A DNA stretch of 21,702 bases from a virus, in IMG/VR virus record IMGVR_UViG_3300031578_000391, positions 1-21,702 of that record, one strand, 5' to 3'. Made by a program: the position numbers and the translations under genes. Below are positions 4,657-21,702 of this stretch, in pieces (position 1 is the stretch's first letter; each line of letters starts with the position of its first letter). A model generated the notes under the pieces. It was not told the DNA's origin. It saw nothing but the letters and a program-made list of their open reading frames with translations, and searched no databases.

Positions 4657-6297
4657 TTGGAGGCAATCCAGCAAAAGTTATCAGACGTTCGCTGGTGGCG
4701 CGAACGGTGTCTGAATGACCTTTTTTTCATTTGTAGAATGGTTCTCTGTACGTTGGACGACCCGGTTCCCGGGTACAAAGACTTGTGGCCCGCCACGCAC
4801 AAGCGGCTGTGCGATTTCATAACGAAGTACGCCCAGCCCGGGAATATCCTGCTTATCCTCCTTCCCCGCGGATGGGTGAAGAGCTACATCATAACCGTCG
4901 GGTGGATGATCCAGCGGTTGTTACAGAACTTGGTGCTACGCCGTCAAGAGCAGTACATCATCAACAACGCGACGTTGCCGAACAGTTTGGAGTTCCTGTC
5001 GAAGATTCAGTACAACCTCATGTACAACGAACTACTCAGGAAGATTTTTTCGGATGTTATCCCCGAGAATCCGGCGACGGAGGCCCGCCGGTGGACGCAG
5101 AGCGAGATAGACCTCGGCGGGACGAAGATAGAAACGGGGTCGGCTGAAGGGAACCTGGTTTCCCGGCACTACTCGGGGGGCCTCATCAACGACGACTTAG
5201 TGAACCGCGAGAATTCGGCTACGTCCGACCAGATTCTGAAGGTCAAGGACTTCTGGCGGCTGGGTCAGTCGCTGAAGATGCCGAAATCGGTTGAGTTCAT
5301 CCCGGGGACTCGCTGGGCGTTTGACGATCTCTATGGCGACCTGATGGAGCGGTTCCTGAAGATCCCCACGGCGGACTTCAAGCGGTATCAGGAAGAACCG
5401 TATTTCGAGTGGCACACCGGGAAGTGGCATCTGTTCCACGCCTCCTGCTGGGCCGATCCGATAAACGAAAAGGGTTCGACATTTCCCACCCTGTTCTCGG
5501 AGAAGAAACTCCACGAGATCAAGGAGGAGCAGGGGGACAGGTTTGGCGGTCAGTACCTGAACGACCCGTTGGCGTTATCGGCCACGAAGTTCAAGCCCGC
5601 CTGGTTCAAGAACTGGAGTGTCTTGCCCCCGCAACGGGCGACCTACCAGTTGATCGACTTCGCCGGGACGGATAACAAGGACAACGACGAGAGTGGGATG
5701 GTCGTAGTTGACGCCGGTGTCGATAAGACGCTGTATGTCCGGCACGCGGCCCGGCGGAGGCTGACCGACCACCAGGCGATCGAGTGGATTATCGAAACGG
5801 CCCTGGCGTATCAGCCGGGACTCATCGGGATAGAGAGTCATAAGTTCGGACTCGTGCGGGACTTGCTCCCGTTCATCCTGGGCCAGATGGTTAGGGTGGG
5901 GAAGGTTCCGAAGGCCCTGCTTGAGTACGCCCACCGGATTCCGTATCGGTTGGTGGAACTCCAGCACCACTCCCGACCGAAGGGATTGCGTATCGGAAAC
6001 CTGTCTGGCTGGGTCGAGAAGGGGCAGGTTCTATTTGCCCCGGACGGGATGACGGACCTGCGGGATGAACTCATCCGGTTCGACAAGTCCCAGCGGGACA
6101 ACATCATCGACGCCCTGGCGTACATCCTAGACGTGGTGGTGTTTCCGTCGGCAACGGACCCGGTGAAGACACTGGTGGTTCCTGACCATCTGAAGAAGAC
6201 CGATTTGGAACGGGAGAAGGAATTTTGGGAAAAAATGCCCGACGTCGTTAGGCCGGGGCAACTGTCGCTCTCGGACGACGTGGAACATTTGTTCTGA
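4657..6297 (+). CDS. terL: Terminase large subunit (packaging ATPase/nuclease)
   Basis: A 546-aa protein with a TTG start; the next Met (residue 28) would remove conserved N-terminal sequence. The ATPase domain has a variant Walker A, PRGWVKS (70-76), and a Walker B-like LINDDLV (176-182). The GTRWAFDDLYGDL segment (217-229) matches the conserved region near the coupling motif. The RNase H-like nuclease carries the expected acids: D334 (LIDFAGTD), E393 (IGIES) and D485 (NIIDALAYILD). The enzyme pumps DNA into the prohead and cuts the concatemer; TerS supplies site recognition. The unusual start may result from insertion of the HNH gene just upstream. Confidence 0.93.
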   Translation: MEAIQQKLSDVRWWRERCLNDLFFICRMVLCTLDDPVPGYKDLWPATHKRLCDFITKYAQPGNILLILLPRGWVKSYIITVGWMIQRLLQNLVLRRQEQYIINNATLPNSLEFLSKIQYNLMYNELLRKIFSDVIPENPATEARRWTQSEIDLGGTKIETGSAEGNLVSRHYSGGLINDDLVNRENSATSDQILKVKDFWRLGQSLKMPKSVEFIPGTRWAFDDLYGDLMERFLKIPTADFKRYQEEPYFEWHTGKWHLFHASCWADPINEKGSTFPTLFSEKKLHEIKEEQGDRFGGQYLNDPLALSATKFKPAWFKNWSVLPPQRATYQLIDFAGTDNKDNDESGMVVVDAGVDKTLYVRHAARRRLTDHQAIEWIIETALAYQPGLIGIESHKFGLVRDLLPFILGQMVRVGKVPKALLEYAHRIPYRLVELQHHSRPKGLRIGNLSGWVEKGQVLFAPDGMTDLRDELIRFDKSQRDNIIDALAYILDVVVFPSATDPVKTLVVPDHLKKTDLEREKEFWEKMPDVVRPGQLSLSDDVEHLF

Positions 6298-6804: not shown

Positions 6805-8763
6805 ATGAATCTCAGACAGATAGAAACCAAGATCGTTGACGGGAAGAAACTCGGCCAGGAAGAAGAAGAATATCTAATTGACAAGATAAATTCGTGCTGG
6901 GACGATCATCCCGACGTAACGATACGTTTCCCGCGCTGGAAGAAGATTCTAGCGTGGGTCAGCGGGTATCAGTATTACGATTACGCCACGGGGTCGAAGA
7001 CTCTCCGGCCCGTTCAGATAAAACGGAAACGGAAACTTGTCTTCAACCGGATGCGGTCGTTCGCTCGGACGATGCTGGCGAAACTGACTCAGACTTCCGC
7101 GAACATGGGGGTCATCCCGAATACCGAAGAATACGAAGACACCCAAGCCGCCGATGTCGGCGACAAGGTTCTGGAGTTTCTGTCGGATAAGCTCCACTTC
7201 CCGTCCCTCCGGCGGTCGTTCAATGCCTGGTTCATCCTGACGAACCGGGCCTATCTCCGGGTCTTCTGGAACTCCGAGGACTCTGGGATTGTCGCTCGCC
7301 AGCAGGAACCCGTCCTAGACGACGGCGGCCAGCCCATCGGCGACAGGTTCAGTAATATCACGGAGCCGGGGGACATCGGGATGGAAGTGCTGTCCCCGTT
7401 CAACTGCCGCGTTGACCCCCTGAACTTTGACCGGAACAAGTGGCGGTGGTTCATGCACGGCGAGGAAGTCGAGGCCGACGCACTCGAAGAGGAATACGAC
7501 CTAGAGGAAGGTTCGCTCAACGAGAAGTCCAACGTCCACGACACGATGCTATCGCTCGACAACTCCGGGGACGAGGACTTCCAATTCAGTCAGTCCTCCG
7601 ACAACGAGAAGATTACCGGGAAACTGGTCATCAAAAAGCATTTCTGGACGCCGAGGATATACGTCATCACGGCGGCGGACAAGGTACTCAAAAGCCGAGA
7701 GAACACCTACGGGGCAATCCCGGTTTTCTTCCACGAGGATAGGTTGGTTCCCATCAATCACTACGAGAGGGGCGTTGTTTATAACGATGGACCCATGAAG
7801 GACTTGGTTCCCGTCCAGCGGGCGTACAACCGTCACAAGTCCATCATTTCCCAGGCCGAACAACGGGCGAGTCAGGTTCGCATCCTGGGTGGATTTGACG
7901 GGATGGTGAACAAGGAACACATCCTCGACCAGTCCGGGGCTATCTTCATCGACTACAACATGACCGCAGGCCGGCCGGAGCAGTTGCGGATGGACGCGAT
8001 GCCGCCATGGGTCATCCAGAACGGGACGGAGTTGGAACGCGAATTCGAGATGGTCGCGGGTGTCCACGAGGCGTCGTTCGGACGGCTCCCGAACCGGGCC
8101 AGCCACGCTTCGGGGGCGTTAGTCAACGTCCTTCTGGAACAGGACGACCAGGTTCTCGACCCGATGATTACCGACATGGACGCGGTTTTCTCGGATGCTT
8201 GGAGTCTGGCCCTGCGGATCGTGCAGGAGAAGTACACGGTCGGGCGGCTCATCAAGGTCTGCGGCAAGAACAGCATCGAGGGGGCCATCAAGTTCCGGGG
8301 GTCCGACCTTCGGGGCAACACGGATGTCAAGGTCAGTTCCAAGACCGGACTCCCCCGCTCCCGCGCACTCCGCATCGACTACATCCAGAAGTTGTGGGAT
8401 TCCAAGATTCTGAGCGACCCCAAGACCGTTCTCGAACTCATCGAACTCGGGGAGGTAAAGAAACTCTTTTCGGACACGCTCCTCCACGAGAAGCGGGCCA
8501 TGCGCGAGAACGCGATGATCGAGAACAACCCGAACATCAACCCCCAGGACGTGGTGGCGTGGGTTTACGACCTGGACGACAATCTGGCCCACCTGAAGTT
8601 CCATCTTCGGGACCGACTCAGCCCTAAGTTTGACCATTACACGGATGCTCAGAAACAAGCGTCCGAATTACATATTCAGACGACGGTGGCGAAATTACAA
8701 CCGCCACAACCCGCAAACGCACCACAACCAACCGCGACGCCCGCGCCGACCCCCCAGGGATAA
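6805..8763 (+). CDS. Portal protein
   Basis: A 652-aa protein, a typical length for portals of short-tailed phages. Recognisable portal features include the N-terminal WKKILAWVSGYQYYDYATGS region, an RMRSFARTMLAKLTQT helix, the SPFNCRVDPLNFDRNKWRW segment in the wing, and NDGPMKDLVPVQRAYNRHKSIISQAEQRA in the stem/clip part, followed by the helical EFEMVAGVHEASFGRLPNRASHASGALVNVL crown-side region. The C-terminus is low-complexity (Pro, Ala, Thr, Gln). The portal is the dodecameric ring at the capsid vertex where terminase docks and to which the tail attaches. Place between TerL and scaffold fits the canonical order. The assignment rests on overall resemblance and context; no search was run. 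Confidence 0.85.
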   Translation: MNLRQIETKIVDGKKLGQEEEEYLIDKINSCWDDHPDVTIRFPRWKKILAWVSGYQYYDYATGSKTLRPVQIKRKRKLVFNRMRSFARTMLAKLTQTSANMGVIPNTEEYEDTQAADVGDKVLEFLSDKLHFPSLRRSFNAWFILTNRAYLRVFWNSEDSGIVARQQEPVLDDGGQPIGDRFSNITEPGDIGMEVLSPFNCRVDPLNFDRNKWRWFMHGEEVEADALEEEYDLEEGSLNEKSNVHDTMLSLDNSGDEDFQFSQSSDNEKITGKLVIKKHFWTPRIYVITAADKVLKSRENTYGAIPVFFHEDRLVPINHYERGVVYNDGPMKDLVPVQRAYNRHKSIISQAEQRASQVRILGGFDGMVNKEHILDQSGAIFIDYNMTAGRPEQLRMDAMPPWVIQNGTELEREFEMVAGVHEASFGRLPNRASHASGALVNVLLEQDDQVLDPMITDMDAVFSDAWSLALRIVQEKYTVGRLIKVCGKNSIEGAIKFRGSDLRGNTDVKVSSKTGLPRSRALRIDYIQKLWDSKILSDPKTVLELIELGEVKKLFSDTLLHEKRAMRENAMIENNPNINPQDVVAWVYDLDDNLAHLKFHLRDRLSPKFDHYTDAQKQASELHIQTTVAKLQPPQPANAPQPTATPAPTPQG

Positions 8764-9883: not shown

Positions 9884-11116
9884 GTGGCTCAAGAATATCA
9901 GTATATCTCTGACATTTTGAAGGAGTTTTACACTCCTGCGATCATCAATCAGCTCTGGAAAAAGTCCATACTCTGGGCACTTCTAAAGAAGAAAACCCAG
10001 GACATGGTTGGCAAGCGGGTTGTCATTCCCGTTCGCATCGGTCTGACGGAGGCCGTCGGCGCCAGGGCTGAAAACGACTACACGCTCCCCACGGCCCAGA
10101 GGAACCTCTACGACCAGGCGTACATCACAATGAAGCGGATGTATGGCCGCGTTCAGGTTGACGGTTTCTCCATCGAATCGGCCAAGGGCAAGGGCGGCTG
10201 GATTGACGTTCTTCAGGGCGAAATCCAGGGCGTCACCGACGCCTTCACGCTCGACATCGACAGGCAGTTACTCTGCGGCGGCAAGGGCATTTTGGGTCTT
10301 TGTTCCGGCGCCGAGTCCACGCTGACTATCCCGGTTGATGACCCCGGCGGCATCACCGGTGATACCCCTCTGGAAAAGTTCTACCGCAAGGGCCAGGTCA
10401 TCGACATCATTGACACTACCCCCCCCACCAAGAATGTTACCGCGGCCCAGATTGCGTCTATTGACACGGCCGGGCACACCATCACGATTACCGGCACCAT
10501 CTCCACCTCTGTTGCGAACGGCGACGCCATTTACAGGGCCAACACCTACGGGGCCGATGATGCCATCGGCGAACTGATGGGCATTGACGGCGTTGTCAGC
10601 GCGGGCGCTACCCCTGGCGCGACTCTGTTTGAGGGCATCCCGGTCACGGAAACCTCCTGGCGGTCGATGGTCAACACTACGGGCGGAGTTCTTTCCGAGC
10701 TACTCATTCAGCAGGACCTGGATTCCATTGACAACAACACGGACGGCGAACCCGTGGATCTGATGCTCACAACGCACCTGCTCCGCAATAAGCTCATCAC
10801 CTTGATGAAGACCGCCTACAAAACGGAAACTCTAGACCTCACCGCCGGATGGAAGGCCATCAAGTACCTCGGCGGTAACGTGGACCTCCCCATTGTCACG
10901 CACAAGAACTGCCCCACGAAGTACGTGTACTACCTCTCTCGCCCCCATCTCAAACTCTGGGTTCTCAAGAACCTCGTTTGGGACGACAAGGGCGGAGGCG
11001 TGGTCAAGCCCGTTGCCGGGTCGGACGCCTACGAGGCGTGGTTCAAGATTTACGCGAACCTCGGCACCGACTGCCGCAACGCTCACGGCAAGTGCACCAA
11101 CTACACCGCTGCATAA
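9884..11116 (+). CDS. Major capsid protein
   Basis: A 410-aa protein with a GTG start (9884) beginning MAQEYQYISDILKEFYTPAI. The N-terminal helix, the LKKKTQDMVGKRVVIPVRIG strand region, the LPTAQRNLYDQAYITMKRMYGRVQVDGFSIES segment and a Thr/Gly-rich insertion (about residues 155-225) before a C-terminal FEGIPVTETSW...LLIQQDLDSID region resemble HK97-fold capsid proteins with an inserted domain. Position right after scaffold supports it. A terminator-like hairpin follows the stop, as is common after this highly expressed gene. The ribosome-binding site is not strong by eye, which is odd for a capsid gene. ATG codons further in would cut the conserved N-terminus. Confidence 0.88.
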   Translation: MAQEYQYISDILKEFYTPAIINQLWKKSILWALLKKKTQDMVGKRVVIPVRIGLTEAVGARAENDYTLPTAQRNLYDQAYITMKRMYGRVQVDGFSIESAKGKGGWIDVLQGEIQGVTDAFTLDIDRQLLCGGKGILGLCSGAESTLTIPVDDPGGITGDTPLEKFYRKGQVIDIIDTTPPTKNVTAAQIASIDTAGHTITITGTISTSVANGDAIYRANTYGADDAIGELMGIDGVVSAGATPGATLFEGIPVTETSWRSMVNTTGGVLSELLIQQDLDSIDNNTDGEPVDLMLTTHLLRNKLITLMKTAYKTETLDLTAGWKAIKYLGGNVDLPIVTHKNCPTKYVYYLSRPHLKLWVLKNLVWDDKGGGVVKPVAGSDAYEAWFKIYANLGTDCRNAHGKCTNYTAA

Positions 11117-11834: not shown

Positions 11835-12299
11835 TTGGCAAACACTCAAGCGATGTGTACTTCTTTCAAGGTGGAAATTCTCAACGGACTTCATGCGCTG
11901 GGAACTTCCGTGGTCCGTGGGGCCACTACGCCCGATTCGTTCAAGGCCGCGCTCTATCTGGCTTCGGCCACCATGAACGCAGGGGCCACGGTTTACACGG
12001 CGACCGGCGAGGTGAGCGGGACCGGCTATACGGCCGGCGGCGTTGACCTTACGGGTACGCCGGACTGGATCGCCCCGGCGAGTTCCGGCACAACGGCCTA
12101 CACGACTCCGAGCGCGAGCATCGTCTACACCACGGTGACGCTGACAACTGCGTTCGACGCCGTGCTGATCTACAACGCGACGCAGGGCAACAAGGCCGTG
12201 AGCGTTCATACGTTCGGATCGCAGACGATTACGGCGGGGACCTTTACGCTGACAATGCCTACTAACGACAGCTCGACTGGCTTACTTCGTATTGCTTAA
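11835..12299 (+). CDS. Conserved phage structural protein, decoration-like
   Basis: A 154-aa protein with a TTG start at 11835, supported by AAGGAG six bases upstream. It opens MANTQAMCTSFKVEILNGLH and contains FKAALYLASATMNAGATVYTATGEVSGTGYTAGG, then VLIYNATQGNKAVSVHTFGSQTITAGTFTLTMP and a terminal LLRIA. This pattern, with the TATGEVSGTGYTAGG signature and the final strand pair, is familiar from a widespread phage protein encoded among head and tail genes and thought to be a virion component. The sequence is Thr/Ala/Gly-rich and probably all beta. Its exact place (capsid decoration or tail) cannot be told from sequence. Confidence 0.75.
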   Translation: MANTQAMCTSFKVEILNGLHALGTSVVRGATTPDSFKAALYLASATMNAGATVYTATGEVSGTGYTAGGVDLTGTPDWIAPASSGTTAYTTPSASIVYTTVTLTTAFDAVLIYNATQGNKAVSVHTFGSQTITAGTFTLTMPTNDSSTGLLRIA

Positions 12300-15143: not shown

Positions 15144-17129
15144 ATGGCTGAAATAGTAAAATATCTTGACCCGGAAGCAACCGGCAACGGGGACGGCAAT
15201 AGCTGGGCCAATGCCTACGTGTCCATCGCGGCTGTCGAGGCGGCCAATGCTCAACTGAGCGGGTCGGGGAACTGGTGGCACGTTTATTTCCGCTCACTCG
15301 GCGGCACCGCCGACACAACCCAGGTTCTCTGGGACGGCTGGACGACGAGCGACACGGAATACGTGCTGTTTGAGGGCATCGCCGGGCAACGGGCCGTCGC
15401 CGATGGGTGGAAAACCGACCGCTACCGCTGGTCTGTGACGAACCCGGCAAACACAATGGCCCTCATCCTGTCCGATAACTACATCTACTTCGACGGGATG
15501 CAGGTGGAGATGCTGTCGAACCACGCCGAGGATGCCCTCATTTACCACAGCAATCCAGGCCTCCGGCTGACCAACTGCCGGTTGCGGGTTGGGGCGACCG
15601 CCGGAACTGGAATCACCGTTTGGATTTACACGGCACAGAACGCCGCTTGCGAGGCGAAAGTCTGGAACACCATCATCGAGAAACACCCGTCGCACAATGA
15701 GAGTGACGTGGCCAGAGGCTGGTTTGGGCAACTTGGACACGGCGACCTCTACAACTGCGTCGTCTACGGGTTCAACCGGGGAGTTCTCTCAAACGATGCC
15801 AATACGGACACCTATGATTCGGCGGTGTTCAATAATGACGACGACTTCTACTACGTCACGAATCCCGGGACGATAGATTACTGCGCCTCTGATGACAATG
15901 ATGGGACGAACAACGTGGCCGAGGGGACGACGGGCGGTGCGGCCTGGCCCAATGTCTTCACGGACGCGGCAAACGGGGACTTCACGCTCAAGGTCGGGGT
16001 CGCACTCATCGGGGCGGGAGGAATGGCCGGGAGCGGCCTGTTCTCTACGGACATCGACGGAACGACCCGAGGCGCGGCCTGGGACGTTGGGGCGCATGAG
16101 TACGTGTCGCCGGGGACAAGCGTTGCCCTGACCGGCGTTTCGGGAACCGCTTCGGTCGGCGCGGTCGCCCTGAGTCTGGCAATGGCCCTCGGCGGCGTTC
16201 TGGGAACCGGGGCGGTCGGAAATCTTGCGCCCACGACCGCCATGCCCTTATCCGGTATTTCTGTTCCCGCGTCCGTTGGAACAATGCCTCCGGCGATGGA
16301 GGCGGTCCTGGCCGGGATCGCGGCCCTGGGCGAGGCGGGGACGGTAACCCCTAGCGGCTCCGTCACCCTGCCATTGACGGGGAATTCCGCACCGGGCGCA
16401 GTCGGCACCGTAAGCCCCACGCCGACGGTTGCCATTTCTGGCGTCTCGGCTAACCCGGCTTATCCTGTCTCCGGTGTATCGGCGACGGGTACCGTCGGTA
16501 ATCTAGATGTTCTCAACTCCAGCATTACCCTTCCCCTCACTGGTGTCTCGGCCGGCCCCGCCTATCCTCTTTCCAGCGTAGCGGCTATCGGAGAGGTCGG
16601 CACCATCGTTTATGCCGAGGAGACCGCAGATATACCCATTTCGGGCGTAGCGGCTACGGGAGAACTCGGCACCGTCGCCCCTTCGGGCGGAGCCCCCGAG
16701 GGCGCGGCCATGACGGGTTCCGTGGGGTCCGTGGCCGTGGCCCCGGCCATACCCGTAACGGGCAATGCGGGGACGGGCGCGGTCGGCACAAGTCCCCCCG
16801 CTCGCAGTAAGGCACTTTCCGGCCTGTCGGCCCCGGCGGCCATTGGCACGGTCGGTGTCGTTATTACTCACGAGGGGGACATCGACGTTGCCCTCACGAG
16901 CATAGCGGGAACGGGCCAATCCGGAGCGGTAGTCCCAAAAAATACTATCGCTTTCTCCGGCGTAACCGGCGCGGGGGCAGTCGGGACACCGACGACCGCG
17001 GCCCCCTGCGTCTGTGTTCCATTAGAGCCGCCGTGGCCGGCGGGGGACGGGGACGTTACCTTTGAACCCTCCTGGCCCGCCGGAGACGGGGATGTGGTCT
17101 TTGAACCTCCCTGGCCCCCCGTTTGCTGA
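15144..17129 (+). CDS. Beta-helix tail protein with Gly/Ala-rich repeats and EPPW tail
   Basis: A 661-aa protein from ATG 15144, with AAGGAG seven bases upstream. Residues 1 to about 325 read as a right-handed beta-helix (LILSDNYIYFDGMQVEML, LRLTNCRLRVG, GDLYNCVVYGFNRGV) ending in the cap-like motif DIDGTTRGAAWDVGAHEY. From residue 327 to about 626 there are about 15 degenerate repeats of roughly 20 residues with consensus L(S/T)GVSATGxVGTVxP. The C-terminus (628-661) holds three EPxWPAGDGDVxF-type units and ends in Cys. It is probably a tail spike or fibre: the helix could bind or cut polysaccharide, and the repeats would form an extended spacer. No lyase active site can be assigned. Some units contain a PAYP element at a 34-residue offset. 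Confidence 0.75.
   Translation: MAEIVKYLDPEATGNGDGNSWANAYVSIAAVEAANAQLSGSGNWWHVYFRSLGGTADTTQVLWDGWTTSDTEYVLFEGIAGQRAVADGWKTDRYRWSVTNPANTMALILSDNYIYFDGMQVEMLSNHAEDALIYHSNPGLRLTNCRLRVGATAGTGITVWIYTAQNAACEAKVWNTIIEKHPSHNESDVARGWFGQLGHGDLYNCVVYGFNRGVLSNDANTDTYDSAVFNNDDDFYYVTNPGTIDYCASDDNDGTNNVAEGTTGGAAWPNVFTDAANGDFTLKVGVALIGAGGMAGSGLFSTDIDGTTRGAAWDVGAHEYVSPGTSVALTGVSGTASVGAVALSLAMALGGVLGTGAVGNLAPTTAMPLSGISVPASVGTMPPAMEAVLAGIAALGEAGTVTPSGSVTLPLTGNSAPGAVGTVSPTPTVAISGVSANPAYPVSGVSATGTVGNLDVLNSSITLPLTGVSAGPAYPLSSVAAIGEVGTIVYAEETADIPISGVAATGELGTVAPSGGAPEGAAMTGSVGSVAVAPAIPVTGNAGTGAVGTSPPARSKALSGLSAPAAIGTVGVVITHEGDIDVALTSIAGTGQSGAVVPKNTIAFSGVTGAGAVGTPTTAAPCVCVPLEPPWPAGDGDVTFEPSWPAGDGDVVFEPPWPPVC
16122..17015 (+). 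repeat. About 15 degenerate protein-level repeats, L(S/T)GVSATGxVGTVxP
   Basis: Successive units include LTGVSGTASVGAV, LGGVLGTGAVGNL, LSGISVPASVGTM, SGVSATGTVGNL, ISGVAATGELGTV, VTGNAGTGAVGTS, LSGLSAPAAIGTV and FSGVTGAGAVGTP. At DNA level they are diverged; the clearest near-copies begin at 16440 and 16542, 102 bases (34 codons) apart, each with a PAYP element. Related units occur at the N-terminus of the protein encoded at 12329-15133. Confidence 0.75.
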
Positions 17130-17147: not shown

Positions 17148-17759
17148 ATGACGGACGCCGAGTTTGAAACCTATGCCCGCTCGCTCTTAAACGATGCCAC
17201 GTCCGTGTTATGGACGGCGGCGGAGTTCGCAGTCTATAAGACCGTTGCCATTGGTCTAGTCAATTCAATCTTCTGGAATCTGCTCTTCCCTCTCAAAAAG
17301 CGGCCGCTCCTTTATTCGCTTGCCGCCGGGGAGAACCATCTGGACCTCCCCGTGGGCTGGCACAAGATTGTCCGGGTAGAGATTGCTTCGACGGGTCAGT
17401 CGTTGAAACCCATTCCCGACACCGAACTTCCCGACTACCTGAACGCCGATGCCGGTGAGCCTGCGGGCTACGCCTTCATGCGGGGCAAGTTGCGGATTCT
17501 GCCCGATTGTGCCGCGGCGATGACCGACTACCTTCGGGTTTATTACCTTCCCCGGGCGACGACCCTGGCCGACCTGCCGGAAGACTTGCACCCGCTCGTG
17601 GCGGTGGAGACGGTCATCTGCGGTCGGACGAAGGACGAGAACGTATCGCCGTACCTGGCGAACCTGCGAGACCGATACGAATGGATTGCGCGGAAATCTC
17701 TCGTCCAGTTCCAGACACAATCCCCGCTTTCGATCCCCGACGATTACGACATGGATTAA
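17148..17759 (+). CDS. Head-tail adaptor-like protein
   Basis: A 203-aa protein from ATG 17148, with AGGAG seven bases upstream. The N-terminus is helical (AEFETYARSLLNDATSVLWTAAEFAVYKTVAIGLVNSIFWN), followed by LYSLAAGENHLDLPVGWHKIVRVEI, where a strand pair leads into the core, and RGKLRILPDCAAAMTDYLRVYYLPRATTLADLPEDLHPLVAVETVICGRTKDE, then a helical end and an acidic tail. The 'L.LP.d....v..v' strand region and the 'YY..p..l.dLPe..h..iv..a' segment are characteristic of adaptor proteins that sit under the portal in short-tailed phages (P22 gp4 or T7 gp11 type). The following gene looks like the matching tail-hub protein. No search was possible, so the name is by pattern and context. Confidence 0.6.
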   Translation: MTDAEFETYARSLLNDATSVLWTAAEFAVYKTVAIGLVNSIFWNLLFPLKKRPLLYSLAAGENHLDLPVGWHKIVRVEIASTGQSLKPIPDTELPDYLNADAGEPAGYAFMRGKLRILPDCAAAMTDYLRVYYLPRATTLADLPEDLHPLVAVETVICGRTKDENVSPYLANLRDRYEWIARKSLVQFQTQSPLSIPDDYDMD

Positions 17760-17761
17760 GC

Positions 17762-19633
17762 ATGGCATACAACACGCCCTCCTCGTACATCTTGGCCGAT
17801 TGGAGCTTCGGATGGGATTTGTCTACCTCTCCCCTCGACCTCGATAAGCGGGCCCTGACGGACTGCAAAAATTTCAACCTGACGATGAAACGGGGTCTGG
17901 AGAAGCGGGGGGGGATGACGAAACTCTATGCCACGCCCGCTGGCGGCGGGGCGCAAGTCCAAGACCTGTTCGAGTACAAGGCCCCGAACGGCACAACCTA
18001 CGTTCTGGTCGCGGCGGGTACGAAGATTCAGGCGTATTACTCGGCGGCGTGGCACGACCTCACGACGGTCACGCCGGGTCTGCGGTACAGCTTCACCGTC
18101 CATCAGGGGTTCTGCTATGGCGTCAATGGGACGGACGCGAACTTCAAGTTCTATAACACGACGGCCTACGGGGTCGGGATAGCCCCGCCAGCGGCGGCCC
18201 CGACTGTCACGGACGGCGGTGCCGGGGCGTTGACGGGCAAGTATCAGTACGTCTACTGCTACAAGCGGAGTACGCCGAACTCGTTTACCGGGAATCCGTC
18301 TGCGGCGAACGTGGCACTCGACCTGACGACCGAGATATTCCACGTCCACTACCTTGCGAGTACGGACGCGCAAGTGGATTACATCGTCATCTACCGGACG
18401 TTGAACCTAAACACGCCGGGGACTGACCCGTTGGCGTTTTTTAAGGTCACGGAAGTTGCCAACGCTGACGGCTCCTACGATGATGAGGCGGCGGACTCGG
18501 CTCTCGGCACGTCACTCCAGATTGACAACACGGTTCCCCCGAAGTCCAAGTTCGTCCTTCTCCACAAGGACCGGATTTTCTACATCAACTGCCCGGACGA
18601 AACGGACGGCGGGAGTCTGGTGCGGTGGAGCAAGGTCGGGATAGGCGACGCCGCGCCGAGTGTCAACTACCAGTATTTCGACCGGAAGGACGGGGAGGAC
18701 ATCACGGGGGCCGCGTCGGTCGGCGACTACCTCATCGTCTTCAAACGGAACCGGATATTTGTCCTGGAGGGCGACTTCGCTAATTTCTACGCCGTTTCGC
18801 ACGGGGTGGGGTGTATCGCCTCTTGGGGCATCATCCCGTTCGAGGACAAGGTTATCTTCCTCGCGGAAGAGGGTTGGAAGTCGTTTGACGGAGTGAACCT
18901 TTACGACCTGTCGAAGTCCATCCGCCCCTTGGCCGAGATGGGTTATATCTCGCCCAGCCAGAACACCCGCTACTCGGCGGCCTACTACCCCGTCAAGGAC
19001 CAGTTCCTTTACCTCTGTAACCACTCGTCGCTGACGAAGAGGGTGTTCGCGGGGCATTTCCTCGTGCCGCTCCTCTACATCAATAAGGGGATCCCTGAAC
19101 AGTTGTCGCAGAACATCGTTGGCTGGACGTACCACGAGTACCCGAACCACACGTTGGCGTGCCTTGGGACGTACACGGACGCGCTCGGGATTACTCGGGT
19201 CCTCGCTGGGTCTTACGACGGCTATGTGTACCTTCTCGATTCGGGGACAGCCGACGTCACTGACGACATCCCGTATGCGATGCAGACGGGTTGGCAACCG
19301 CTGGGGAAGTCTCCGGGTGTGTCCAAGACGATCAGGCTCGGCTTCATCTCGCTGACGGCATCGGGCGGTTGTGCCCCCACGCTCACGGTCGATAGGGATT
19401 ACGAGTTCTCGTCCTATTCCACGGTCCTGGCGATAGACGAACTCAGCACGGCCTTCTGCGGGTACTGTTACTGTGGTTATACTCACATCGGGTCTCTGAT
19501 GGGGCGCACTAAGCGGGTGGCAATTCCCGGCACGCCGGGTCAGTTGTACCGCTTCGGACTGAGCGGGAGTGACCAAGTGGATTTGACACTTCAGGCGATG
19601 ACGTTCCAATACCGAAGCGAGGGCGTGAAATGA
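17762..19633 (+). CDS. Tail hub / DNA-stabilisation-like protein
   Basis: A 623-aa protein. The frame is open from 17507, but that part overlaps the adaptor gene, so the start is ATG 17762, two bases past the adaptor stop. The N-terminus reads DWSFGWDLSTSPLDLDKRAL followed by CKNFNLTMKRGLEKRGGMTKLY; 'N......G.l.kRpG' is the signature of proteins that follow the adaptor in short-tailed phages (P22 gp10 or T7 gp12 type). The rest is strand-rich with repeated motifs such as DRIFYINCPDE, GDYLIVFKRNRIFVLEGDF and AGSYDGYVYLLDSG, which suggest a beta-propeller-like fold. It would plug or extend the tail tube and anchor fibres. The stop overlaps the next start (ATGA). Confidence 0.6.
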   Translation: MAYNTPSSYILADWSFGWDLSTSPLDLDKRALTDCKNFNLTMKRGLEKRGGMTKLYATPAGGGAQVQDLFEYKAPNGTTYVLVAAGTKIQAYYSAAWHDLTTVTPGLRYSFTVHQGFCYGVNGTDANFKFYNTTAYGVGIAPPAAAPTVTDGGAGALTGKYQYVYCYKRSTPNSFTGNPSAANVALDLTTEIFHVHYLASTDAQVDYIVIYRTLNLNTPGTDPLAFFKVTEVANADGSYDDEAADSALGTSLQIDNTVPPKSKFVLLHKDRIFYINCPDETDGGSLVRWSKVGIGDAAPSVNYQYFDRKDGEDITGAASVGDYLIVFKRNRIFVLEGDFANFYAVSHGVGCIASWGIIPFEDKVIFLAEEGWKSFDGVNLYDLSKSIRPLAEMGYISPSQNTRYSAAYYPVKDQFLYLCNHSSLTKRVFAGHFLVPLLYINKGIPEQLSQNIVGWTYHEYPNHTLACLGTYTDALGITRVLAGSYDGYVYLLDSGTADVTDDIPYAMQTGWQPLGKSPGVSKTIRLGFISLTASGGCAPTLTVDRDYEFSSYSTVLAIDELSTAFCGYCYCGYTHIGSLMGRTKRVAIPGTPGQLYRFGLSGSDQVDLTLQAMTFQYRSEGVK

Positions 19634-21012
19634 CGATTGACAACCTTTCTCTTCCGCCCACCCCATCCGATGTGCGCACAAAGCAGGCACTGGAGCGAAT
19701 AAGAAGCAAGCTAAACGAGTTGGTGGATAACGCCAACATCGTCCAGGTCGGGGACACGGGGGGCACGGTTAACCAGGCCGCAAACGCCGACACGGTTGAC
19801 GGCTACCATCACGACCAGAGTTTATTGAAGGCGGCCACCCCGACCTTCGCGGCGGTCAAGACCAACGCCATCAATGTTTTCTCCAGGACGATACAGTCCG
19901 TCGTCACGTTCTCTTTCGACGATGGACAGGATTCCGTATTAACACTCGGGAAGCCCGTATTCGATGCACACGCTGTCGCCGCTACGCTGTTCATAGTCAC
20001 GGACTGGATTGGAACCGAAGGGAAACTAACAACCGCTAATCTAGCTACCCTTTTCGCCGCCGGGTGGGAAATTGCCAGCCACACCAAGACGCACGCAGAT
20101 CTGGCTCTCGCTACCCCAGAAGAATTGACGACAGAACTAGCCACATCGCAGTCCGTATTGCGCGGTCTCGGGTATCCTTGTCGGACGCTGGCCTACCCCT
20201 ACGGGTCAACCAACGTGACCGTCCGAAACGCGGTGAAGCAATACTACGAATTGGCACGGCGGGCGTGGGGATGGGGCGGAGTGGATTGGCAGCCGCTCCC
20301 CCTGACATCGTTCCGACTCTCGGCAATCGGCCTGGACGGGTTATCCCTCGCCGCCGCCAAGGCTTATGTGGACGCCGCCGTGGGGACAACCATGATGCTC
20401 AACTTCTTTGGGCATCAGGTAAACGCGGCGATGGCGACATTGCTGGATGACTTGATTACTTACATAGAGTCAAAAGGCATAGCGATCGTAACGTATGAAG
20501 ATGCTATCCCCATTGTTGGGAACGTCTTTGAGTATGAGTCCTCAGACGAGGCGGACAGATTTACGGTCGGGGCAGACGGCCGCCTGGGGATAGAAAACTT
20601 AGACATTACCGCCCTTACCGCAGACACCGTGTGCGCGGGGTGCGCTATTAATTTTCGTTCCGTCATTACTGGTCGGTCAACGGCAAGTTTGGAACTAAAC
20701 TCTGGTCAGATAATGTGTGAAGACCTCACCGACCCGGCCAAGAGACTTGTGTTTGCCAGATTCGGCGACCCAAACATTTCTGTCATACAGAGTTGGTGGA
20801 CATCCGGTCCCACCGGGTGTTTTTGGCCGCTGTGCTTGAATCCCGAGGGTGGGAATGTGGGCATCGGGACGTTTACGCCCGGGAGCGCGTTGTCCGTAGT
20901 CGGTCTTCCGACATACGCCACCGACGCCTTGGCTGGAACCGGGGGACTGGTTACCGGGGATTTATATACGGTTACAGGAACAAGCCCCCTGCAATTAGCC
21001 GTGAAAATATAA
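19630..21012 (+). CDS. Tail fibre with embedded polysaccharide deacetylase (CE4/NodB) domain
   Basis: A 460-aa protein overlapping the previous stop by four bases. The N-terminus is helical (RTKQALERIRSKLNELVDNA), then the fibre motif ADTVDGYHHDQ (about residues 53-63). Residues about 90-285 show the CE4 deacetylase motifs in order: TFSFDDG with D97-D98, SHTKTH with metal-ligand candidates H151 and H155, RTLAYPYG with R185, and NFFGHQV with candidate catalytic H262. All expected residues look present, so it may be active. The enzymes remove N- or O-acetyl groups from polysaccharides such as chitin, peptidoglycan or PNAG. The C-terminus (NVGIGTFTPGSALSVVGLPT and YTVTGTSPLQLAVKI) is fibre-like. 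It probably modifies or recognises an acetylated host surface glycan. Confidence 0.87.
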   Translation: MTIDNLSLPPTPSDVRTKQALERIRSKLNELVDNANIVQVGDTGGTVNQAANADTVDGYHHDQSLLKAATPTFAAVKTNAINVFSRTIQSVVTFSFDDGQDSVLTLGKPVFDAHAVAATLFIVTDWIGTEGKLTTANLATLFAAGWEIASHTKTHADLALATPEELTTELATSQSVLRGLGYPCRTLAYPYGSTNVTVRNAVKQYYELARRAWGWGGVDWQPLPLTSFRLSAIGLDGLSLAAAKAYVDAAVGTTMMLNFFGHQVNAAMATLLDDLITYIESKGIAIVTYEDAIPIVGNVFEYESSDEADRFTVGADGRLGIENLDITALTADTVCAGCAINFRSVITGRSTASLELNSGQIMCEDLTDPAKRLVFARFGDPNISVIQSWWTSGPTGCFWPLCLNPEGGNVGIGTFTPGSALSVVGLPTYATDALAGTGGLVTGDLYTVTGTSPLQLAVKI

Positions 21013-21022
21013 GGAGATAATC

Positions 21023-21702
21023 ATGGGAGTGCCAACGAAGTTCTTTACCTTCGTAGATTCTCAGGCCGCGGCGGGGTTGATTACGGCGGCGCGGCTCAAC
21101 GGCGACTTCGACCCCCTCTATGCGTGCCTCGACCCCGCTGTGGGCGGGCTAGAGGATACCAACGTCAAGTCCGGGGCGAAGATCGTCTGCACCGACCGCG
21201 CACATACCATCACCGGGATTTGGACGTTCACGACTGCCCCGGTCCTGCCAGATGGTTCCGTTGCGGATGCCAAGCTCACGTCCAACGTGATGCTCAAGAC
21301 GACCTACGACACGGACATAGACGGGCAGGTAGAAGACGCGGACACGGTTGACGGACAGCACGCCGCCGCGTTCGCCGCCGCCGCGCACAATCACAACCTC
21401 AACGACCTTACGGAGAAATCCTATAACTCCCTAACCGACAAGCCCTCCACGGGTTATGCGCTGTGTGTAACCGCCGCCGCCCTTAGCCCGGCTGATGGCC
21501 TGACGTATTATTTTGGTAGTCGCTATTCGGCCCCGACGACCACGGCGGACTTTTGCCGAGTCTATATTCCAACGGCCGGAACTATCAAGACGGCGTATGT
21601 TTTTTGGGCCGGGTCGGCCCCAACGGCCGAAAACATCTCTGTGTACATCCGGCTCAACAACACATCGGACACGCTCATTGAGACCATCGGCGATGTGGCG
21701 GA
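21023..21702 (+). CDS. Tail fibre protein, 5' part (continues beyond window)
   Basis: An open frame from ATG 21023, with AAGGAG six bases upstream, to the window edge: 226 codons and no stop. It starts MGVPTKFFTFVDSQAAAGLI. The DADTVDGQHAAAF segment (about residues 111-123), with AHNHNLNDLTEKSYNSLTDKPS just after it, is typical of phage fibre shafts, and the ADTVDGxH element is shared with the deacetylase fibre upstream. The following YYFGSRYSAPTTTADFCRVYIPTAGTIKTAYVFW and NISVYIRLNNTSDTLIET region is strand-rich and looks like a receptor-binding or shaft module. The receptor specificity cannot be told because the C-terminus lies outside the window. Confidence 0.8.
   Translation, partial: MGVPTKFFTFVDSQAAAGLITAARLNGDFDPLYACLDPAVGGLEDTNVKSGAKIVCTDRAHTITGIWTFTTAPVLPDGSVADAKLTSNVMLKTTYDTDIDGQVEDADTVDGQHAAAFAAAAHNHNLNDLTEKSYNSLTDKPSTGYALCVTAAALSPADGLTYYFGSRYSAPTTTADFCRVYIPTAGTIKTAYVFWAGSAPTAENISVYIRLNNTSDTLIETIGDVA

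Follow-up and report, generated by a model that had tools for sequence, protein, structure and literature searches.

For a phage, enzymatic tail fibres determine access to glycan-coated cells. Among deacetylating tail proteins, those found in the literature with reported activity are SGNH esterases, which remove O-acetyl groups. Described here is a 460-residue tail-fibre-like protein with an internal CE4 polysaccharide deacetylase domain. From such a CE4 fibre, removal of N-acetyl groups would be expected, and this other chemistry could extend to polymers such as PNAG or peptidoglycan. The gene lies in a 21,702-base virus record, the whole of which is referred to here as the window, and the structural gene order of this record is like that of P22 and SU10 according to Pfam and PHROG profile matches (Table 1). 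The protein probably serves a short-tailed, P22/SU10-like phage as a tail fibre or minor tail protein and carries an active-looking CE4 deacetylase. This reading is based on the domain, its motif set, the position of the gene and fibre-linked relatives, together with a predicted fold, and from these we infer virion location, activity and substrate.

Table 1. Features of the window and of the CE4 protein, in order of position
Feature	Coordinates	Strand	Evidence or content
Terminase	4657-6297		Profile matches
Portal	6805-8763		Profile matches
Major capsid protein	9884-11116		Profile matches
934-aa tailspike, pectate-lyase-like beta-helix	12329-15133	+	PF12708 5.3e-15; phrog_7458 tail spike 1.6e-14
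SU10-type head-tail adaptor protein	17148-17759	+	PF24175 6.8e-7
Upstream structural protein, nozzle- or internal virion-like	17762-19633	+	phrog_3287 7.5e-16; phrog_511 8.3e-12
460-aa tail-fibre-like protein with internal CE4 polysaccharide deacetylase domain	19630-21012	+	ORF; PF01522
Residues 1-84, putative virion-attachment part	19630-19881	+	Predicted helix 15-34 and ADTVDGYHHDQSLL fibre stretch
CE4 catalytic domain, residues ~88-299	19891-20526	+	D97, D98/H151/H155, AYPYG 188-192, H262
Residues 300-460, C-terminal region, fibre-like tail at end	20527-21009	+	
Downstream fibre-like gene with second DADTVDG motif, cut by contig end	21023-21700	+	74% identity to L005:13414-14142

The CE4 Domain and Its Catalytic Residues

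The ORF is real and runs from an ATG at 19630 to a stop codon at 21010-21012, and the residues numbered D97, D98, H151, H155, R185 and H262 in the initial annotation are numbered correctly. Its assignment to CE4 was confirmed by a profile search, in which PF01522 (Polysacc_deac_1) matched residues 88-205 with 71.2 bits (E = 9.8e-20) against a curated cut-off of 23.1 bits. The NCBIfam CE4 models HfsH (1.8e-14) and NodB (3.1e-9) also match, all of them below their equivalog cut-offs, and the sequence matches solved CE4 structures such as 4hd5 (2e-8). An SGNH domain was considered as well and is unsupported; the profile searches and Foldseek found a CE4 domain and fold instead.

The catalytic residues were compared across viral, bacterial and archaeal relatives in an alignment of 16 rows. 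No variation occurs in it at D97, D98, H155 or P190, and almost none at H151. The Asp-Asp of motif 1 (D97-D98) and the H-x3-H of motif 2 (H151 and H155) are thus present and kept in the viral relatives. The motif 5 His, H262, lies toward the C-terminus of the domain and is nearly invariant in a 10-row alignment of the viral domains. The complete motif set that had been proposed therefore stands for D97, D98, H151, H155 and H262, while R185 is ruled out as the motif-3 residue. This Arg is not conserved, being common only to records L027, L028 and L030 in the 16-row alignment. The conserved core of motif 3 is instead A188-Y189-P190-Y191-G192, in which G192 is nearly invariant.

In many CE4 members, but not in all, motif 3 has an Arg before P-Y/F-G. 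Because this Arg is missing in some members, the Ala at its position (A188) does not exclude membership of the family. The same Ala is found in the AYP-type subgroup represented by 4hd5, 6go1 and 6dq3, which were deposited as polysaccharide deacetylases. It also means that the substrate cannot be read off the sequence. By analogy with the established CE4 mechanism, the metal would be bound by D98, H151 and H155, with D97 as the base and H262 as the acid.

Predicted Structure

The AlphaFold2 model of the protein, built with a 16-row alignment as input, is consistent with the CE4 assignment. Residues ~91-190 have a pLDDT of 95-98, and most of residues ~231-290 lie at 83-98. Lower blocks occur at 211-230 (two, at 59 and 68) and at 291-300 (70), and values fall below 50 for residues 36-86 and 299-460. 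The top Foldseek match of the model is the turret protein of HFTV1 (8qpg; E = 4.2e-12, rmsd 2.3 Å over 211 columns), followed by many CE4 esterases and deacetylases with a probability of 1.00, which points to the NodB distorted barrel fold. A profile built from the CE4 relatives likewise finds 8qpg at 6.3e-15. When the model was compared with viral predicted structures, the matches included gp673 of Bacillus phage G, minor tail proteins of Arthrobacter phages and the HFTV1 protein.

Fibre Context and the Gene Slot

The initial annotation placed the domain between an ADTVDG fibre motif and a fibre-like C-terminus. The first part of this description holds. The ADTVDG element occupies residues 53-58, and residues 46-73 share 64% identity over 28 aa with a stretch in the long fibres of L001 and L003, where it recurs in the L003 fibre as ADTVDG...HHDQSLL. 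The alignment with the L003 fibre scores 89, whereas 500 shuffles averaged 38.7 and reached 59 at most. The second part is less firm. The C-terminal 160 aa have no Pfam match and a pLDDT of about 30-40, and their similarity to the downstream fibre at 21023 does not rise above that of shuffles. The fibre-like character of residues ~300-460 is suggested solely by the appearance of the sequence (GNVGIGTFTPGSALSV...). The start of this region aligns with the stretch that follows the CE4 domain in the proteins of phages EvePickles and Alsa_2.

The position of the gene also links it to the tail. Its start codon lies in the last four bases (ATGA) of the nozzle-like gene, so that a CE4 protein with a fibre stretch is encoded among tail genes and in overlap with a structural gene, which places it with the CE4 tail proteins. 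In the related phage L003, a 1898-aa fibre directly follows the homologue of the nozzle-like gene, so that a long fibre takes the place of the CE4 gene. Fibre-like genes also occupy the slot in the relatives L007 and L010, and the N-termini of the slot proteins are weakly similar. L005 has other genes between flanking genes that share 86% and 74% identity with those of the window. Taken together, the profile, fold, synteny and relatives provide good support for a CE4 deacetylase domain inside a tail-fibre-like protein.

PF01522 was found in none of 12 viral records, comprising relatives of the phage and three records fetched through the shared fibre stretch, most of which are fragments. The CE4 domain is therefore likely to be a gained cassette and is not a conserved part of the virion in this phage group. 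The GC3 of the gene, 0.64 compared with 0.72-0.80 in most structural genes, is weakly compatible with such a gain.

The window also encodes a 661-aa protein at 15144-17129, the second half of which is a run of similar short segments (SGVSATGTVG-like), and a homologue of this segment-rich half (L005:12598-13401) occupies the CE4 slot in L005. A 154-aa protein at 11835-12299, with 88-90% identity to its counterparts in L005 and L008, is encoded before the tailspike in the window and after the nozzle-like gene in L005, which points to cassette shuffling.

Relatives of the Domain and Possible Module Swapping

The closest domain found, with 59% identity to that of the window, belongs to L027 (IMGVR_UViG_3300032020_000053), and the domain of L028 has 43% identity. 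Both genes directly follow a tape-measure-like gene, with strong support in L027 (phrog_8462, 3.6e-35) and weak support in L028 (1.7e-5). Some relatives are joined to further modules. In L022 and L023, CE4 is fused to the baseplate domain BppU_N, and in L028 it is joined to a Laminin_G_3 lectin domain. In a tree of 20 rows, the window and L027 are paired with a support of 97/96. Another split (85/91) separates four bacterial enzymes from most of the viral domains together with one Parcubacteria sequence; the deeper forks are weak. A search of genome contigs with the single protein found only distant bacterial and archaeal relatives.

The L027 protein differs from that of the window in belonging to a siphovirus-type phage, in following the tape-measure gene, in its N-terminal anchor and in having an SO2946-like_C domain at its end. 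Its first 28 residues are almost identical to those of a beta-helix-like protein of L005 (score 108, shuffle maximum 40). This N-terminus, MA[TS]WT.KVD..DKILAA..NALQTLKAD, is thus shared by a podovirus-type protein (L005:6385-8013) and the siphovirus-type CE4 protein (L027:5905-7311). L005 is a member of the phage group of the window, and both records come from the same metagenome (3300032020). These alignments suggest that different phages have combined one virion-anchor sequence with different catalytic domains. A broader proposal, for which the chances are slightly short of even, is that CE4 deacetylases are a widespread enzymatic cassette that viral adsorption proteins exchange, that within a community they move between short-tailed and long-tailed phages by being swapped onto common virion-anchor sequences, and that archaeal viruses recruited them independently.

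Proposed Function of the Protein

In the proposed mechanism, the metal-dependent CE4 deacetylase would have an attachment part on its N-terminal side and a fibre part on its C-terminal side, and during adsorption the fibre would bind a surface glycan of the host and remove its acetyl groups. Judging from the family, the N-acetyl groups of GlcNAc-type sugars in capsule, exopolysaccharide or peptidoglycan would be the likelier target, and O-acetyl groups would be a possible one.

It is rather unlikely that the enzyme, although part of the virion, serves mainly to remodel peptidoglycan at DNA entry instead of deacetylating capsule or exopolysaccharide at adsorption. The solved CE4 structures matched do include the peptidoglycan deacetylases 2c1g, 4l1g and 6h8l. 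However, peptidoglycan is not opened by deacetylation alone, and both the position of the gene among fibre genes and the beta-helix tailspike of the phage fit outer glycans better. There is a small chance that the protein is instead a virion pseudoenzyme, in which the CE4 fold has lost catalysis and is mainly a glycan-binding module. Binding without cutting is frequent in tail fibres, and CE4 pseudoenzymes exist among the solved structures (BA3943, 7bkf), but the core catalytic and metal residues of this protein are all present and are conserved in its viral relatives. Least probable, and very unlikely, is a non-virion enzyme that alters host surface glycans during infection, for instance to block superinfection or aid release: bacterial CE4 enzymes usually work on the envelope of their own cell, and in EvePickles glycosyltransferase and acetyltransferase genes lie after the CE4 gene on the opposite strand, but here no signal peptide is apparent in the translation, which lacks a hydrophobic N-terminal stretch, a fibre-type stretch precedes the domain, the gene sits in the tail cassette and overlaps a structural gene, and CE4 relatives are fused to BppU_N or adjoin tape-measure genes.

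Comparison with Known Systems

The view that CE4 enzymes are mainly secreted enzymes of bacteria and fungi, on which the initial annotation relied, is outdated for viruses in light of Gordonia, Arthrobacter and Staphylococcus phages and the HFTV1 turret (PMC12494034). PF01522 occurs in 50 phage records (46 of them from Gordonia phages), many with proteins named glucosaminyl deacetylase or minor tail protein. There are further cases in Arthrobacter and Staphylococcus phages. Across the phages of these three host genera, the domain is carried by minor tail, fibre and baseplate-type proteins. Phage CE4 tail proteins are thus already known, and what the window contributes is a case in a short-tailed-type phage, with hints that modules have been swapped. 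PF01522 is shared with gp31 of Gordonia phage ZiggyZoo, gp30 of Arthrobacter phage EvePickles and the tail protein of Staphylococcus phage Alsa_2, and the last two also share the stretch after the CE4 domain. However, these proteins have 24-27% identity and different N-termini, and they belong to Gordonia, Arthrobacter and Herelleviridae phages and not to a short-tailed-type phage.

Cryo-EM of HFTV1 revealed a CE4-like turret protein in the virion with Zn, and glycan modification at adsorption has been proposed (PMC12494034). This head protein (8qpg) has a CE4-like domain in common with the protein of the window, and its virion exposure and Zn have been seen. In contrast, HFTV1 is an archaeal virus, and its protein forms a trimer on capsid turrets and not a tail fibre, possesses an N-terminal galactose-binding-like domain and shares 18% identity.

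The SGNH tail proteins of Possum (gp66) and Aristophanes (gp41) deacetylate host polysaccharide (PMC9569702, PMC8471582), and G7C gp63.1 is cited in these papers for the same activity. These three tailspikes are also virion proteins, but their SGNH fold is unrelated and they carry out O-deacetylation, whereas N-deacetylation is expected of most CE4 enzymes. Beyond HFTV1 and the SGNH cases, the literature searched yielded nothing on point on CE4, NodB or BppU-deacetylase fusions in phage tails. Because none of the papers found in it reports activity measured directly on a CE4 tail protein of a phage, the protein of the window and its 59% identical relative in L027 are reasonable test cases.

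The tailspike of the window is a second candidate carbohydrate-active receptor-binding protein, and from its sequence the phage may have two carbohydrate-active adsorption proteins. The C-terminal ~240 aa of this tailspike have no convincing family match. Near its left end, at 2285-2358, the window also carries a tRNA-Trp gene with the anticodon CCA.
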